This document shows positions 44,642 through 53,591 of a stretch of DNA of 64,000 nt, piece by piece. Each line of letters begins with the position of its first letter. The first letter of the stretch is position 1. The notes beneath the pieces were generated by a model that had not been told where the DNA came from, did no database searches, and was given only the letters and a program-made list of their open reading frames with translations. Source of the DNA: Triparma columacea. Taxonomy: Eukaryota > Sar > Bolidophyceae > Parmales > Triparmaceae. The position numbers were made by a program, and so were the translations under genes. The stretch is taken from the NCBI GenBank assembly GCA_030267965.1, contig BRYA01000072.1, forward strand, positions 4,886-68,885, written 5' to 3'.

Positions 44642-47600
44642 ATGGATTTTGAGAAAATGCTAAAAAGGAGGATTCCAAAAAAGAAAAACCAGGAACTTGC
44701 TGTACAGCTTCCATCTTCAGAAGCTGAAAATGGGAAGCAGAACGCCCTCAATGAAGGACAATGTCGGAGACATGGATGTAAATGTAAGATTAGTACGCCA
44801 TACGCAAGTCATTTTGACGATTTAAGGGACAGGAATGTTAAAACAAACCTGTTCTTTTTTATGATGTTTAATGAATTCTTAAACAACTTCTGGGGCCAGC
44901 AGGGGTCCGAAAGTTGGACGGAAGGCGGCTGTCATATGTGAGCGCATATTTTCTAACTCTTCTGACCATCCGTGTGCTCTCTTTGTAGGATGATGTCAGA
45001 AACCTTGACCCCTGTTGCCTTCGAGAAGCTGTGAGTACTGCACTTGGGGTAGGAAGTTACCCTGTTGTTTCAGGTTAAGGAGAGCTGCAAATGTCTAAAT
45101 AGTTCACGTGAGCGTCTAACTCTCCTCCCTCCCTTCCTTCCGCAACTCTGTCTTTTTTGTCGTTGTTTTCATCACCCTCAAAATCTAGGTGAGTGACTTG
45201 AGTGTTTCTACGGTTTCTCCTCATTTTGATTCCACCGTGGTTCCATCACTCCAGTACTATTGCCTCCTCTCTCTTCTCCGCATTCTTCCAAGCTCCGAAT
45301 CCCTCCCGGCATTGCCTTCACATCTTCGTGATAAAATGAAGACGATGATGAGAAAATCGCTCAACAGGTGAGTGTTCGGCAGCCAAGAGGGGGGGGGAAG
45401 GCCCGTGTCATACTTTCAAATCATCATTATACTAACACGGTCTCTATCTCAGGTCCACCGTGAGGGGATGGGGGGCGAACTGGGCTGAGGATGGTATCCT
45501 TGACCTGAGTGGAGTAAGGGGAGTTGAAGGGGTTTGGTTTTACGACCTCTTGCCTTCGAATTTTGAGAGCGAGGCGCGGATTAAGTCGTACCATGCCAAC
45601 CGTGGCATCGACGACATCCAATGCAACAACGACCACAACGATGATCATAATCAGCATGACAGAGACACTGATGAGGATAGCGAGTTCATGTCACCCGACC
45701 CGGTGAGGAAACATCGCTCCTCGACGATTTCATCTACAGGGACCGTCCCGACGAGCTCCCCCAGTTTTGAAAGTCCGAGTTTTGGAAGTCCGAGCTTTGG
45801 GAGCCCCACTCCGAGTCTCATTGGCAGCGTAATATCGAGCATGGGGAGGTGAGCGAGCGGGTAGAGCAAACGCAATCTACTAGCGAGAAGACGACAACCA
45901 TGTCAACTCCAGCTCACCCCCCCCCTCTCTTACCTCCATACAAAACTCCAGCTTCAGCCATGATCGTACGGAGCAATCTAGTTTCACCCTGGGACCGAGC
46001 GCAGGGGCGAAGGAGGAGCCGCAAGTTTACACAATGATGGAGCAGGACGACGCGGATTCATATAATTCGTTCGACGAGTTCGAAGATTACTGGAAGGCAT
46101 CGCTTTGGGCCAACCTCACTACCCTCAGCGTACAGGGCTGCAAGAGCCTAACCTTCCTGCCACCCTTTCCGACAATGCCTTCGCTGACCAGCCTCAACAT
46201 ATCCTCAACATGCCTTCCTTCTTGCTCCCTTTACAGCTTCTCTGGGTCCGACTCTCTGGCGTTTATTGACATTAGCAACAATAGGTACGTCAAGGGGAAG
46301 GACATTTGGGCACTCAGCCACCTCGCCAACGTCAAGGTGTTCAAGGCAAACAGGTGCCGAGGCATCCAAGACGCGGGGTGGGCGGAATCGTGGGCCAACC
46401 TTGAAACTTTCGAACTTTCAGCTACCTCCATCATCAAGGTGCCGAGGCTCGTCAGCCTCGTCACTGTCAACTTTTCCCACAACCCGCAGCTCCAAGAGCT
46501 GCCGCACTTCCCACACCTCAGAAGTTGTAACGTTGCAAGCACGAGATTGGGCAGCAACTGGGTGAGAGGGCTTTGGCAGTGCGAGAAGGTGGATGTGAGC
46601 GGGCTGGATTTGGATTACACAGACGTCGAGGCTTTACACGCTGTTAAGGTGCTCAAAGTCAACCGTATCACCAACGTACTCCGAAGACCTGAAGTTGGGG
46701 AAGACGCTGATGGGTCCTTCGTCAAGACGGAGCACCTTGAGGCCAGGTACTGCGGGGCCACGGACAGTCACATCAAAGCGTGGAGGTGGAGCGCTCTGAG
46801 GTGAGAAAGAGGGTTGTTGTGAGAGGTGGGGTGGGGGAGAGGGGGAGCGGGGGCGGAGGGGTCGCAGTTGAAGCGCAGGATGAGAGTAGAGTCTAACCCC
46901 AAGAGTCCCCCGCGTACGGCAGACACATTGATTTGGAGGGCAACACAAGGGTCTCAGACGCAGGGGTGGATTTCCTCGCAAACATCACCAATGGGAAGCT
47001 CGAAGGGATCAAACTTTCGGACTGCTCAGTAACGAGGATTCCGACAATCGTGGGCCTCCAGGTCCTGGACTTATTCTTTTGCCCAATCAACTCATACGAC
47101 AGAATTAACAGCTTGACGGAGATGATGGAATTGAACCTTGACGGCAGGGGCGTGCACGACTCGGATATCATGGGACTTGGGGCACTGAAAAGCTTGGTCA
47201 AGCTCGACCTCCACAGCGCAGTCATTTCGGATAGGGGGGCGAGGGAGATCTGCAAGCTGAGTAACCTCAAGTGGCTGGCAGTCTGCGGGGGAAGCTTGAC
47301 CTCTGTAGGTGCGAGGATGATCTGCGATGGGTGCGAGATGCTCAGGAGGGTAGACTTTAGTCAGAATTCGTGTGTAAGGGACGAAGCGGTGGGAGCCCTT
47401 GCAGCATTGGTTTGGCTGGAGGAAATCAACCTCAGCAACACCGGCGTCACGTCCGCAACGTTGTACTTATGGGCAGTGACACCGAACCTTAAATGTCTGA
47501 CGCTGCTGGGCTGCAAGGGAATCACTGAAGGGAGCGTTCGGGCGGTACTGGAAGGCACAGGGGGGGACTTTGGGGTGAGGGCATGGACTGAGGACGCCAA

Positions 47601-47853
47601 GAACTACTTTTTGGATCGGGATGATGACGAGAGCGAAGAGGAGGACGAGGATGAGGTTGATGAGGTTGATGAGGTTGATGAGGTTGATGAGGTTGATGAG
47701 GTTGTTGTTGATGATGGTGATGACGATGTCGATGACGACGACGATGATGAGGAGGTGGTGTTGGAGGAGGTGGTGTTGGAGGAGGAAGAGGTGGGAGTTG
47801 GAGTGGTTGCAATGGAAGAGCAGGACGAGGACGACGACATGGAGGATGATTAA
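44642..47853 (+). CDS. Leucine-rich-repeat protein, seven exons
   Basis: Exons 44642-44937, 44989-45030, 45074-45092, 45189-45367, 45453-45848, 45952-46800 and 46923-47853; all phases agree, 903 aa. The 19-nt third exon uses a weak GTCTAA donor. After a charged start and a disordered Ser-rich stretch (SFESPSFGSPSFGSP), about 550 residues form irregular LRRs, e.g. LTTLSVQGCKSLTFLPPF, SLVKLDLHSAVISDRGA, WLEEINLSNTGVTSA and LKCLTLLGCKGITEGSVR; the last are of the cysteine-containing or ribonuclease-inhibitor type. The C-terminus is an acidic tail with VDE repeats. Divergent from IFT52, which may mean coexpression, but a flagellar role is not shown. Confidence 0.75.
47650..47703. repeat. 9-bp coding microsatellite (GATGAGGTT)n
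   Basis: About five to six 9-bp units encode Val-Asp-Glu repeats in the acidic tail of the LRR protein. The unit keeps the frame. Confidence 0.9.
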
Positions 47854-48643: not shown

Positions 48644-50788
48644 TTAGGCGCCTATTAGCATTCGCGAAAAATAGTCGTAATCGATAAGCATATCATCATC
48701 CGCGACTTTGACTATGCTTGTCCTTTCGTCACTTCCCATGGCCACCCCTCCCATCTCCTCGAGGACGACCCTTAAATCGCCCGCCCTGATGAAGCCGCTG
48801 TTCTGCTTGTCAAGTGCGTTGAAAGTGTCAACAAAGAGGTTGTAGAACTCCGCCTCAGCAATCATTCCCACGAACTCATCATACTCTAGGACTACATTCC
48901 CGTCAATGGCGGGATTTGCCTTGTTTATCATGGCTGCTAGTTCCTCGTCTGTGCGTGCTTGCCCGACCGATTCCATGACGCGCTTGAGGTCCAGAAGTGT
49001 TATTTTCCCATCGCGCTCGTCGCCACCATCGATAATGTCAAAGACCGCCTTGAATTCGGTTTTCTGAGCCTCCGTAAGTTGTCCGACGAGCAGACTCCTC
49101 CTGTAGAGCTCTGCGGGGTCTCCCCACTTCGGGCTTGTTTCCATTATGTGGTCAAAGCACCTGGCGGCAGTGCGGACCATTTTGAACTTCTGGAGGAGGG
49201 GTATGACGGAGGCGGGGTCAAGGTCGACCTTCACCGCTTTCTCCTCCTGTGACAGCTTGAGTTCCTGGACGCCGACGGCCCCGTACTTGTCGTCGACCCT
49301 CTCGAAAACGTCCTTGCTTATCATTTCCCTCTTCTTTCCGCTCAGAGCGCAGCTGGCTGGGATCTCGTTTTGCTTAAAGGTGAAGCACCTAGTCGTCTCC
49401 GCACTCTTGACAGCTTTTATTGTGGCTGCTCTCGGCTCGCCGGTGATGAGTGAACGCTGCGGGGGGAGGTAAGGGTTAGCGATGTCAGGGCTATGACACC
49501 CGAACCAAAACCGTTCGGTGGTCACCAAAACCGTTCGGTGGTCGATTCTCCCCCCCCACCCCCTAGCCCGCGTCTCACCTCCCCAAAGAAGTTCCCCGTA
49601 TCAAGCCTGTTCACCACGACGCCCTCGTAGTCGGAAGAGAGAATCGACGGATCCTCTTTCCCCGTGCGCGCCTTGACCTCAACCTCCCCATCCCTAATAA
49701 CATAGAACTTGGCACCCTCGAAGCCTTGCTTCATGATTGTGCTCCCAGGCTCAAACGACGACAGCGTGGCCTTGGAGAGCATCTCCTGGAAGTCAGATTC
49801 AGGCATATCCACAAAGTAAACGATGTTGCGAATCATGTTTTCCTCCTCCTTCGTTATTATTGTGTCCCTCTCAGCGCAAGGCGCAGACTCGGTCACGTTG
49901 GGCTGTGGGGAGGCGAGGGGAGAAGGTTAGCTCATAATGCACAAAATAATCACGGCGAACCATGGCAAAATCCCTCGCAAACCCCTCACCTCTCCATCTT
50001 CCTCAACAATGATGACATTACCATCAGCATCAAGCCGATTAGTTATGTAGTCAGCCAATTTCTTTTTGAGGATGGGAACCTTAGAGGGCCCACACGGGAA
50101 GCTCTCAAGGACCTTGATCTCTGGACCACCAGAGTAAAAGTGGACATTGGGGAGGGCCAGGATGCCCAGCGACTTGACGAACTTTTTGTTATGCTGCACG
50201 TCGAACTGCGCAAATACTACGTCCTTGGCGTCGTCGACGTTGGCAATGCGCTTATACTTAGGCTCCAAGCCCTTGCAAGCGCGGCACCAGGGCGCATAGA
50301 ACTTCATCACCACGAGCTTGTCTGGGTTCTCACCGAGAAAACGCTTGTGGTCCTCCTCGTTGGATAGATTCGTTATGTTGTCGACAGGCTAGTCAGCGGA
50401 GGGGGAGGCGGGGATGTGTGTGTGTGTGTGTGTGTGTAGGGGTATGGTTAGGGGGTGTACGGGGGGTCATCTCCATCTCCCACCACCTCCGACCAAGAGC
50501 CAACACCCTTACCTCAAAAACACCCTGACTACCATCCTCGCCGCCCGTCGCTCGAATGTCACTACTGCTGACACCCTCTTCAACACTCCCCTCCTCTACA
50601 CTGGCATCGAGCCTCATTGAATCCTGCCATCTCCCTGACAACGACACTGATCTTGTTGAAAAGGCTGGTATTTCATCATTGTAGCCTTTAACGGGAAAAA
50701 CAACCCTCTCACGCCAAGTTGATGTCGTCATCATAACATAACCATTACATCCGAGGAAAAATAGTACAATAACGGCGCAAACTTTCAT
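48644..50788 (-). CDS. Thioredoxin - cNMP-binding - EF-hand fusion protein
   Basis: Exons 50788-50513, 50388-49990, 49902-49579 and 49456-48644, all phase 0, 603 aa. Residues 1-17 (MKVCAVIVLFFLGCNGY) look like a signal peptide. Exon 2 is a thioredoxin domain with LVVMKFYAPWCRACKGLEPK; active-site Cys127 and Cys130, and a cis-Pro in ALPNVHFYSGG. Exon 3 and the start of exon 4 form a cyclic-nucleotide-binding domain: FEPGSTIMKQGFEGAKFYVI, RDGEVEV, then, joined across the intron, NFFGERSLITGEPRAATIKA, the phosphate-binding cassette. The C-terminal half has EF-hand helices and loops (DGGDERDGKITLLDLKRVME; AIDGNVVLEYDEF; DKQNSGFIRAGDL); the third loop is the most canonical. It could join redox, cAMP/cGMP and Ca2+ inputs; location and function are unknown. 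Confidence 0.85.
50415..50437. repeat. TG dinucleotide microsatellite
   Basis: An uninterrupted TG run in the first intron of the thioredoxin-fusion gene. Confidence 0.95.
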
Positions 50789-52984: not shown

Positions 52985-53591
52985 ATGCCTGAGTCAAATA
53001 AAGCCGCCAAGAAGCGTATTCAGAAGGCCAATAGGGCTGCCGGAATCGGTGCGTGATGTCCTGCGGAGCGAAGATACTCTATACCCTCATCGAGCAGAAA
53101 TGGACTTTGTGGTCTCGCCTTTTTGGCTTTTACTTTACTTGATTACTGCATTTATTACGACTATACACCCGTATTAGCAAATTTTTTTGAAGTTCAACAA
53201 CGACATGTTAACCCTCTGACTCTCAAAATTCCCCCCTTCCCTCTCCTCTAACACCCCAGGTGACGAGACTGGCCGCCTTGTGAGGGTGAAAGAGGCCCCC
53301 AAGATGGCCAGGTGCACAATATGCCAGATTGAACTCAAAATAACCAAGACTTGTACCGAGCTGAAGGCACACGCCGAGGGTAAGCACGGGAAGACTCTGG
53401 AGGAGGCCTTCCCTGGAGCTGCTGCAATTGCTGCTGAATTGGCGGCCGCCAAGCCCGGGAAGGGGGGGGCCGCCGCGGCTGCGCCGGCGGCCAAGAAGGG
53501 GGGTAAGAAGAAGGGTGGAGACATTGGAGACCTCGACGATTTGCTGGCCGCAGGCCTCAATGTGGGAAAGAAGAAGGGAAAGGGAAAGTGA
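52985..53591 (+). CDS. ZNF706-like small zinc-binding protein
   Basis: Exons 52985-53048 and 53260-53591 (phase 1, GTGCGT...CCAG), 131 aa. The N-terminus (MPESNKAAKKRIQKANRAAG) is basic, like the 4F5/SERF-type segment of this family. A single C2H2-type site follows: ARCTICQIEL...LKAHAEGKHGKTL, with EAFPG after it, as in ZNF706 and plant At2g23090-like proteins. The tail is Ala/Gly/Lys-rich. Human ZNF706 acts in stem-cell differentiation and binds nucleic acids; the role in algae is unknown. Confidence 0.78.

Follow-up and report, generated by a model that had tools for sequence, protein, structure and literature searches.

Triparma columacea, a single-celled marine alga and kin of the diatoms, encodes a 603-amino-acid protein in which a signal peptide, a thioredoxin domain, a cyclic-nucleotide-binding (cNMP-binding) domain and a C-terminal EF-hand module follow one another from the N- to the C-terminus. 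The four-exon gene lies on the minus strand (50788-48644) of the window, that is, of the whole 64,000-nucleotide stretch of DNA analysed here. An earlier note on this DNA had proposed that a single polypeptide unites the three kinds of domain, and both an intronless public protein and the curated Pfam cut-offs bear this out. The window protein is very probably the bolidophyte member of a family common to diatoms and of conserved architecture, and a calredoxin-like sensor-responder design is the best reading of that family. The idea of coupling a redox enzyme to a cyclic-nucleotide sensor survives and is strengthened by conservation.

Gene model, family and exon borders

All four exons lie on the minus strand. 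Exon 1 (50513..50788; residues 1-92) contains the signal peptide and a presequence or linker, exon 2 (49990..50388; residues 93-225) the thioredoxin domain and a linker, exon 3 (49579..49902; residues 226-333) the start of the cNMP-binding domain, and exon 4 (48644..49456; residues 334-603 and the stop codon) the remainder of that domain, a helical linker and the EF-hand module. The introns between them measure 124 nt (50389..50512), 87 nt (49903..49989) and 122 nt (49457..49578). Each is GT-AG and in phase 0, in exact agreement with the coordinates and the single phase given in the earlier note. Retention of intron 2 would introduce an in-frame stop, and a (CA)n run is found within intron 1, near 50437-50415. 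Intron 3 sits within the phosphate-binding cassette (FGE / RSLITGEPRAATI), with junction 333/334 falling between E333 and R334, so the cassette is assembled across an intron, as had been claimed.

The public protein P0001 (546 aa) is identical at every position to residues 58-603 and lacks all three introns, including intron 1, and P0004 aligns over ~400 aa that span introns 2 and 3. Because the introns are missing, both are read as transcript-derived, most simply from RNA-derived contigs. P0005, in turn, runs through intron 3, as an unspliced DNA contig would, and an unspliced copy is therefore also on record. These three sequences come from the window's own species or a very near one. In the Pfam search, Thioredoxin (55.9 bits, 4.8e-15; curated cut-off 23.5), cNMP_binding (47 bits, 2.6e-12; cut-off 27.5) and EF-hand_7 (31.5 bits, 2.3e-7; cut-off 30) all cleared their curated cut-offs, the last of them barely; EF-hand_6 scored 24.3 bits, below its cut-off of 25. 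The 37.85 Mb assembly returned 26 matches, comprising the gene's own four exons and 22 single-domain matches (best E 1.8e-10). The locus looks single copy in this assembly, since those 22 are weaker and cover one domain each.

How widespread is this architecture? Our search recovered 388 homologs among 7995 scored candidates (those sharing most words), of which 120 are listed. All three domain types were recognized by Pfam in 112 of these 120; thioredoxin was missing from six (P0004, P0005, P0007, P0066, P0081, P0092) and an EF-hand entry from two (P0008, P0010); the sequences of P0004, P0005, P0007 and P0010, at a minimum, are incomplete. Twelve of the listed 120 bear an organism name, in every case a diatom or a bolidophyte: Triparma, Bolidomonas and Tetraparma, which are the nearest named proteins, and the diatoms Corethron, Extubocellulus, Skeletonema (two), Chaetoceros, Thalassiosira, Cyclotella and Cylindrotheca (two). 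The aligned homologs keep the order thioredoxin–cNMP–EF-hand. Transcriptome-named homologs join thioredoxin and cNMP domains, for example P0010 (Bolidomonas) and P0017 (Corethron), and the automatic name of P0098 already gives the three domains. A quick tree (118 rows; P0004, P0005 and P0007 dropped) places the window protein within a nine-row bolidophyte-type group. P0017, on a very long branch (1.56), joins the same group, a placement that may be an artefact. Since both diatoms and bolidophytes have the family, it would be at least as old as their split.

Candidate outside sources were rejected. A two-pattern peptide scan of prokaryotic genome contigs gave 36 matches and one weak relative, confined to the thioredoxin region and located on a Chloroflexota contig, and a scan of viral contigs with two short patterns gave 75 matches and no relatives. 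A thioredoxin-only query returned six phage records (29-33% identity in the five shown), which are silent on the whole architecture. For a stand-alone thioredoxin ancestor, a first query yielded 11 matches and a profile built from 11 sequences yielded 93; no clear ancestor was present among the 15 of these 93 that we examined. Several of the 15 resemble fragments of the family, and P0170 and P0184 are PDI-like. P0153, P0159 and P0160 were set aside as separate thioredoxins with WCKTC and SFPCGP motifs; they are ~190 aa long and have no cNMP or EF-hand entry, and one stems from a Bacillariaceae MAG. A wider group of FPCGP thioredoxins may exist.

The earlier note had further held that exon borders coincide with domain borders and took this to suggest exon shuffling. 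The coincidence holds for two of the three introns, as junctions 92/93 and 225/226 fall between domains, but not for intron 3, which splits the cNMP pocket at 333/334, inside the phosphate-binding cassette; between the cNMP domain and the EF-hand module there is no intron at all. Residues outside the domains as bounded make up 26.7% of the protein, and finding at least two of three junctions there is chance-like (P 0.18). Moreover, 12 of the listed 120 homologs (P0006, P0021, P0036, P0037, P0082, P0087, P0098, P0109, P0110, P0111, P0115 and P0116), whose longest contig reaches at least 10 kb and which have no NCBI source, hold the three domains in one predicted protein, which suggests intron-poor genes in relatives. 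If these 12 were called without splicing, their domain regions would be intron-free and the introns in the window later. Exon shuffling is therefore unsupported, given the split cassette, the chance-like borders and the single-protein homologs on long contigs.

On the plus strand nearby, two adjoining open frames at 45884-47853 contain leucine-rich repeats (LRR_8 3.4e-8; LRR_4 4e-8), the second of them ending in a long acidic run; they may together make up one LRR gene that an intron or a break in frame interrupts between 46804 and 46897. A small protein at 53220-53591 (+) has a weak zf-met2 zinc-binding match (25.7 bits, below the cut-off of 27), and a tandem array of CCCCACACA lies at about 51390-51310.

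Thioredoxin, cNMP-binding and EF-hand domains

The thioredoxin domain (residues 93-210; 50035..50388, minus strand) is ACHT-like and, as the earlier note had it, retains an intact CxxC. The two cysteines of the active site C127-R-A-C130 (50275..50286) are present in 114 of 114 homologs covering these columns. A third, C191 in SFPCGPSK (50092..50094), is found in all 117 homologs covering it and aligns with the ESFSC of ACHT1. The active site reads WCRAC, differing from the classic WCGPC. Among the best 60 PDB sequences listed, ACHT1 is the top single-domain chain against the thioredoxin domain and PDI chains beat it in whole-chain bits; ACHT1 also ranks first for the C-terminal piece of the domain. 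In a fold comparison it is level with many other thioredoxins. To our knowledge, the ACHT and TrxL2 thioredoxins of plant chloroplasts come without sensor domains. Measured against ACHT1 (structures 6lyw/6lyx) and TrxL2, as covered by excerpts of PMC6882916 and PMC11910432, the domain aligns with ACHT1 over most of its length, with HFY-G and ESF-C, including the cysteine of the latter, common to both. In contrast, the ACHT1 active site is CGSC rather than C-R-A-C, and the cysteine of its NKSLCKSL is a valine in the window protein, whose WCR-C recalls the WCRKC of TrxL2. Overall, the domain resembles the plastid ACHT1 type.

The cNMP-binding domain (residues 237-370; 49346..49869, minus strand) is interrupted by intron 3, with F331-E333 of its cassette at the end of exon 3 (49587-49579) and R334-I346 at the start of exon 4 (49418..49456). 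The cassette, FGERSLITGEPRAAT, contains both the Glu and the Arg. Conservation at its key positions is high: E333 is kept in 113 of 121 rows (Asp in the remaining eight), R334 in 121 of 121, R342 in 118 (Leu or Ile in the other three), and the alanine that follows, A343, in 121 of 121. A strict whole-cassette pattern, however, fits only 97 of 121 rows, and 11 of 121 deviate at the Glu or Arg column. Given these substitutions and the 97 strict matches, not every family member need bind a ligand.

By sequence, the domain is closest to PCR12 and to the regulatory chains of PKG and PKA. It has the fold and the phosphate-binding cassette in common with the cyclic-nucleotide domains of the PKA regulatory subunit and PKG; unlike these, the window protein has no kinase part. 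Foldseek ranks 1-3 are CNB structures with bound cGMP or cAMP, yet the fold also matches closed or apo CNG channels, the regulator DNR and cAMP-independent trypanosomatid PKA subunits, and fold alone therefore shows no ligand. Taking cassette and fold together, we lean modestly toward a domain that binds a cyclic nucleotide. As a rule, Ala after the cassette Arg favours cAMP over cGMP. The PKG cassettes in our comparison read FGERALLYDEPR[ST]A, with Ser or Thr where the family invariably has Ala, and because A343 never varies, the putative ligand would be cAMP rather than cGMP. Potential sources of such a ligand exist in the genome in the form of 18 stretches matching class III cyclases (11 on the plus and seven on the minus strand). 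None of the cyclase frames inspected had a convincing plastid presequence, their gene starts being mostly uncertain and often unreachable. PF00027 has 130 matches in the genome, many for 38 Mb, and contig C572 carries a single 3601-aa frame with several cNMP-binding domains.

The C-terminal part (residues 414-603; 48647..49216, minus strand) consists of a helical lead-in and the EF-hand module, with calmodulin matches covering residues 458-601. Of the EF-hand loops that the earlier note had described, the module stands, as EF-hand_7 passes its cut-off, whereas the loops themselves are degenerate. None of the four fits the consensus D-x-[DNS]-x-[DNSTG]-G-x-[ILVFM]-x-x-x-[DE]; loop 1 (residues 476-489; 48989..49030) has 14 residues and a terminal Asp, and loop 3 (residues 549-560, DKQNSGFIRAGD; 48776..48811) has Gln at position 3 and Asp at position 12. 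The 11 rows P0001-P0011, labelled bolidophyte-type by similarity and tree (P0010 ends within loop 3), have no canonical loop either. Among the 109 other rows, labelled in the same way, 23 have two canonical loops, 52 have one and 34 none. Loop by loop, loop 1 is canonical in 73 of these 109 and in none of 11 bolidophyte-type rows (here counted with the window protein and without P0004), loop 3 in 25 of 109, and none of these rows has a canonical loop 2 or 4. A calmodulin frame from the same genome, used as a positive control, showed three canonical loops in the portion translated. With none of its four loops fitting the consensus, a Ca2+ input, likewise claimed in the earlier note, is doubtful in the window species, where it has probably been lost or weakened; in many diatoms it is plausible.

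AlphaFold2 on P0001 (72-sequence alignment) gave a mean pLDDT of 85.6 and a pTM of 0.43, so that the model defines each domain well but not how the domains are arranged relative to one another. No calredoxin or EF-hand chain appeared among the 50 VIA rows listed, which one domain filled.

N-terminus and compartment

Where does the protein reside? In algae with complex red plastids, the classic plastid presequence is a hydrophobic core followed by [ASGCT]F, the ASAFAP-type motif. The window protein starts with a probable signal peptide (residues 1-16; 50741..50788, minus strand), for which inspection by eye suggests cleavage before Y17; its hydrophobic core (KD9 3.42) is followed by N-G-Y, and there is no A-F motif. 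Among intact N-termini, defined as starting with M and having >60 residues before the thioredoxin domain (n=64, window included), 54 show a hydrophobic core and then [ASGCT]F, the window protein being one of the ten that fail. Shuffling the same residues 200 times gave 11.5 on average and at most 25, as against the observed 54, although the 64 are not independent cases because several rows are near-identical. As a further control, 57 matches to light-harvesting proteins were found in the same genome, 27 of which were tried; nine of the 10 with a readable N-terminus scored for the plastid motif by script, and seven were clear by eye (L029, L030, L038, L039, L041, L048 and L055). Since these proteins carry the F, a copy without it is unusual for this genome, and the plastid assignment of the window protein leans mainly on its relatives.

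The signal peptide recognized in the earlier note is present and is best taken as the opening half of a plastid presequence, which is what most intact homologs have. "Secretory" here most likely means plastid, given that 54 of 64 homolog N-termini are of plastid type, and we consider it probable that the family protein is located in the plastid after entry via the ER route. The C-terminus ends in LIGA, with no KDEL-type tail. As to potential redox partners, the peroxiredoxin C-terminal family has two matches in the genome. No match was found for the beta subunit of ferredoxin-thioredoxin reductase, possibly because red-lineage plastids encode it themselves.

Proposed mechanism and its alternatives

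The explanation we favour is an ACHT-like thioredoxin wired to a ligand sensor and working most likely in the plastid. The protein would reach the plastid by way of the ER; its cNMP domain would bind a cyclic nucleotide, presumably cAMP and not cGMP; and this binding would change how the thioredoxin is positioned against the helical linker and EF-hand module, thereby switching thiol exchange with its partners in the plastid. The likeliest of these partners are 2-Cys peroxiredoxin and the enzymes that this peroxiredoxin oxidises. Many diatoms may have a second input, Ca2+ at EF loop 1. Overall, we slightly prefer a cyclic-nucleotide-gated plastid thioredoxin; ligand-gated thioredoxin activity as such is a nearly even call that falls just short of our endorsement. 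More tentatively still, the plastids of diatoms and bolidophytes might hold a cyclic-nucleotide pathway with a thioredoxin as receptor, in which cAMP, whether synthesized inside the plastid or brought into it, would directly switch the thiol oxidation and reduction of photosynthetic enzymes. We know of no plant example of such a second-messenger cAMP input to plastid redox control.

Could Ca2+ alone be the signal? A plastid thioredoxin built like calredoxin and gated by Ca2+, with the cNMP domain structural or reserved for another small ligand, would draw on the canonical loops 1 and 3 outside the bolidophyte type (73 and 25 of 109), the calmodulin matches, the Ca2+ transients in the diatom stroma described in an excerpt of PMC11663583, and the precedent of calredoxin itself (PMC4911631, in excerpt). 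We regard it as unlikely, for canonical loops are absent from the window protein, its nearest rows and 34 of the 109 others, whereas the cNMP cassette is near invariant. That same cassette, with Glu retained in 113 and Arg in 118 of 121 rows, argues against a constitutive thioredoxin whose extra domains serve docking only and sense no signal, an improbable reading to which the lack of canonical loops in the window protein, the 11 of 121 deviating cassettes and the known cAMP-independent relatives of the fold nevertheless lend something.

The N-terminus and the thioredoxin domain bear on a different possibility, a PDI-like oxidoreductase in the ER or periplastid space with its sensors toward that lumen. 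A signal peptide without F at +1, the top whole-chain scores of PDI chains and a WCRAC that departs from WCGPC all fit such an enzyme, but 54 of 64 plastid-type N-termini, the LIGA end in place of a KDEL-type tail, and the first rank of ACHT1 for the C-terminal piece, with its ESF-C match, make it quite improbable. The last alternative is two adjacent genes or a mis-joined model. The chance of this is minute: intronless P0001 is identical to residues 58-603, P0010 and P0017 carry thioredoxin and cNMP domains together, and the 12 long-contig homologs hold all three domains. Joined homologs thus exist, and no evidence for two separate genes emerged.

For the gated plastid thioredoxin that we prefer, calredoxin is among the closest known systems. 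The EF-hands of calredoxin stand before its thioredoxin domain, whereas those of the window protein come after it and have degenerate loops. According to excerpts of PMC4911631 and PMC10602609, calredoxin (CRX) of Chlamydomonas joins a chloroplast thioredoxin to four EF-hands and works on peroxiredoxin as a sensor-responder; green algae have conserved it, and vascular plants lack it. Its redox-active CxxC is matched by the window protein; its four EF-hands bind Ca2+, while the window protein has no canonical loop and the 109 other rows have 0, 1 or 2; and these excerpts name no cNMP domain, which the window protein does possess. In Verrucomicrobiae, calmodulin-like EF-hands are fused to cNMP-binding, thioredoxin and other domains, and the authors consider bacterial and eukaryotic EF-hand fusions independent (PMC7016017, in excerpt); the partners are of the same kinds, but the excerpt does not state the triple found here. 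The earlier note knew the triple from no described family, and our searches of open-access papers likewise turned up no description of thioredoxin, cNMP-binding and EF-hand domains together, nor did the excerpts of PMC5139114, PMC9436416, PMC5462543, PMC8318260 and PMC2173943.

Diatoms account for ~20% of global carbon fixation (PMC2173943, in excerpt). Should the cNMP domain bind its ligand, cyclic nucleotides would be directly linked to plastid thiol chemistry in diatoms, and in many species Ca2+ would be as well. The protein also shows that a calredoxin-like design extends beyond green algae, and the question of cyclic nucleotides inside complex plastids becomes testable through one protein.
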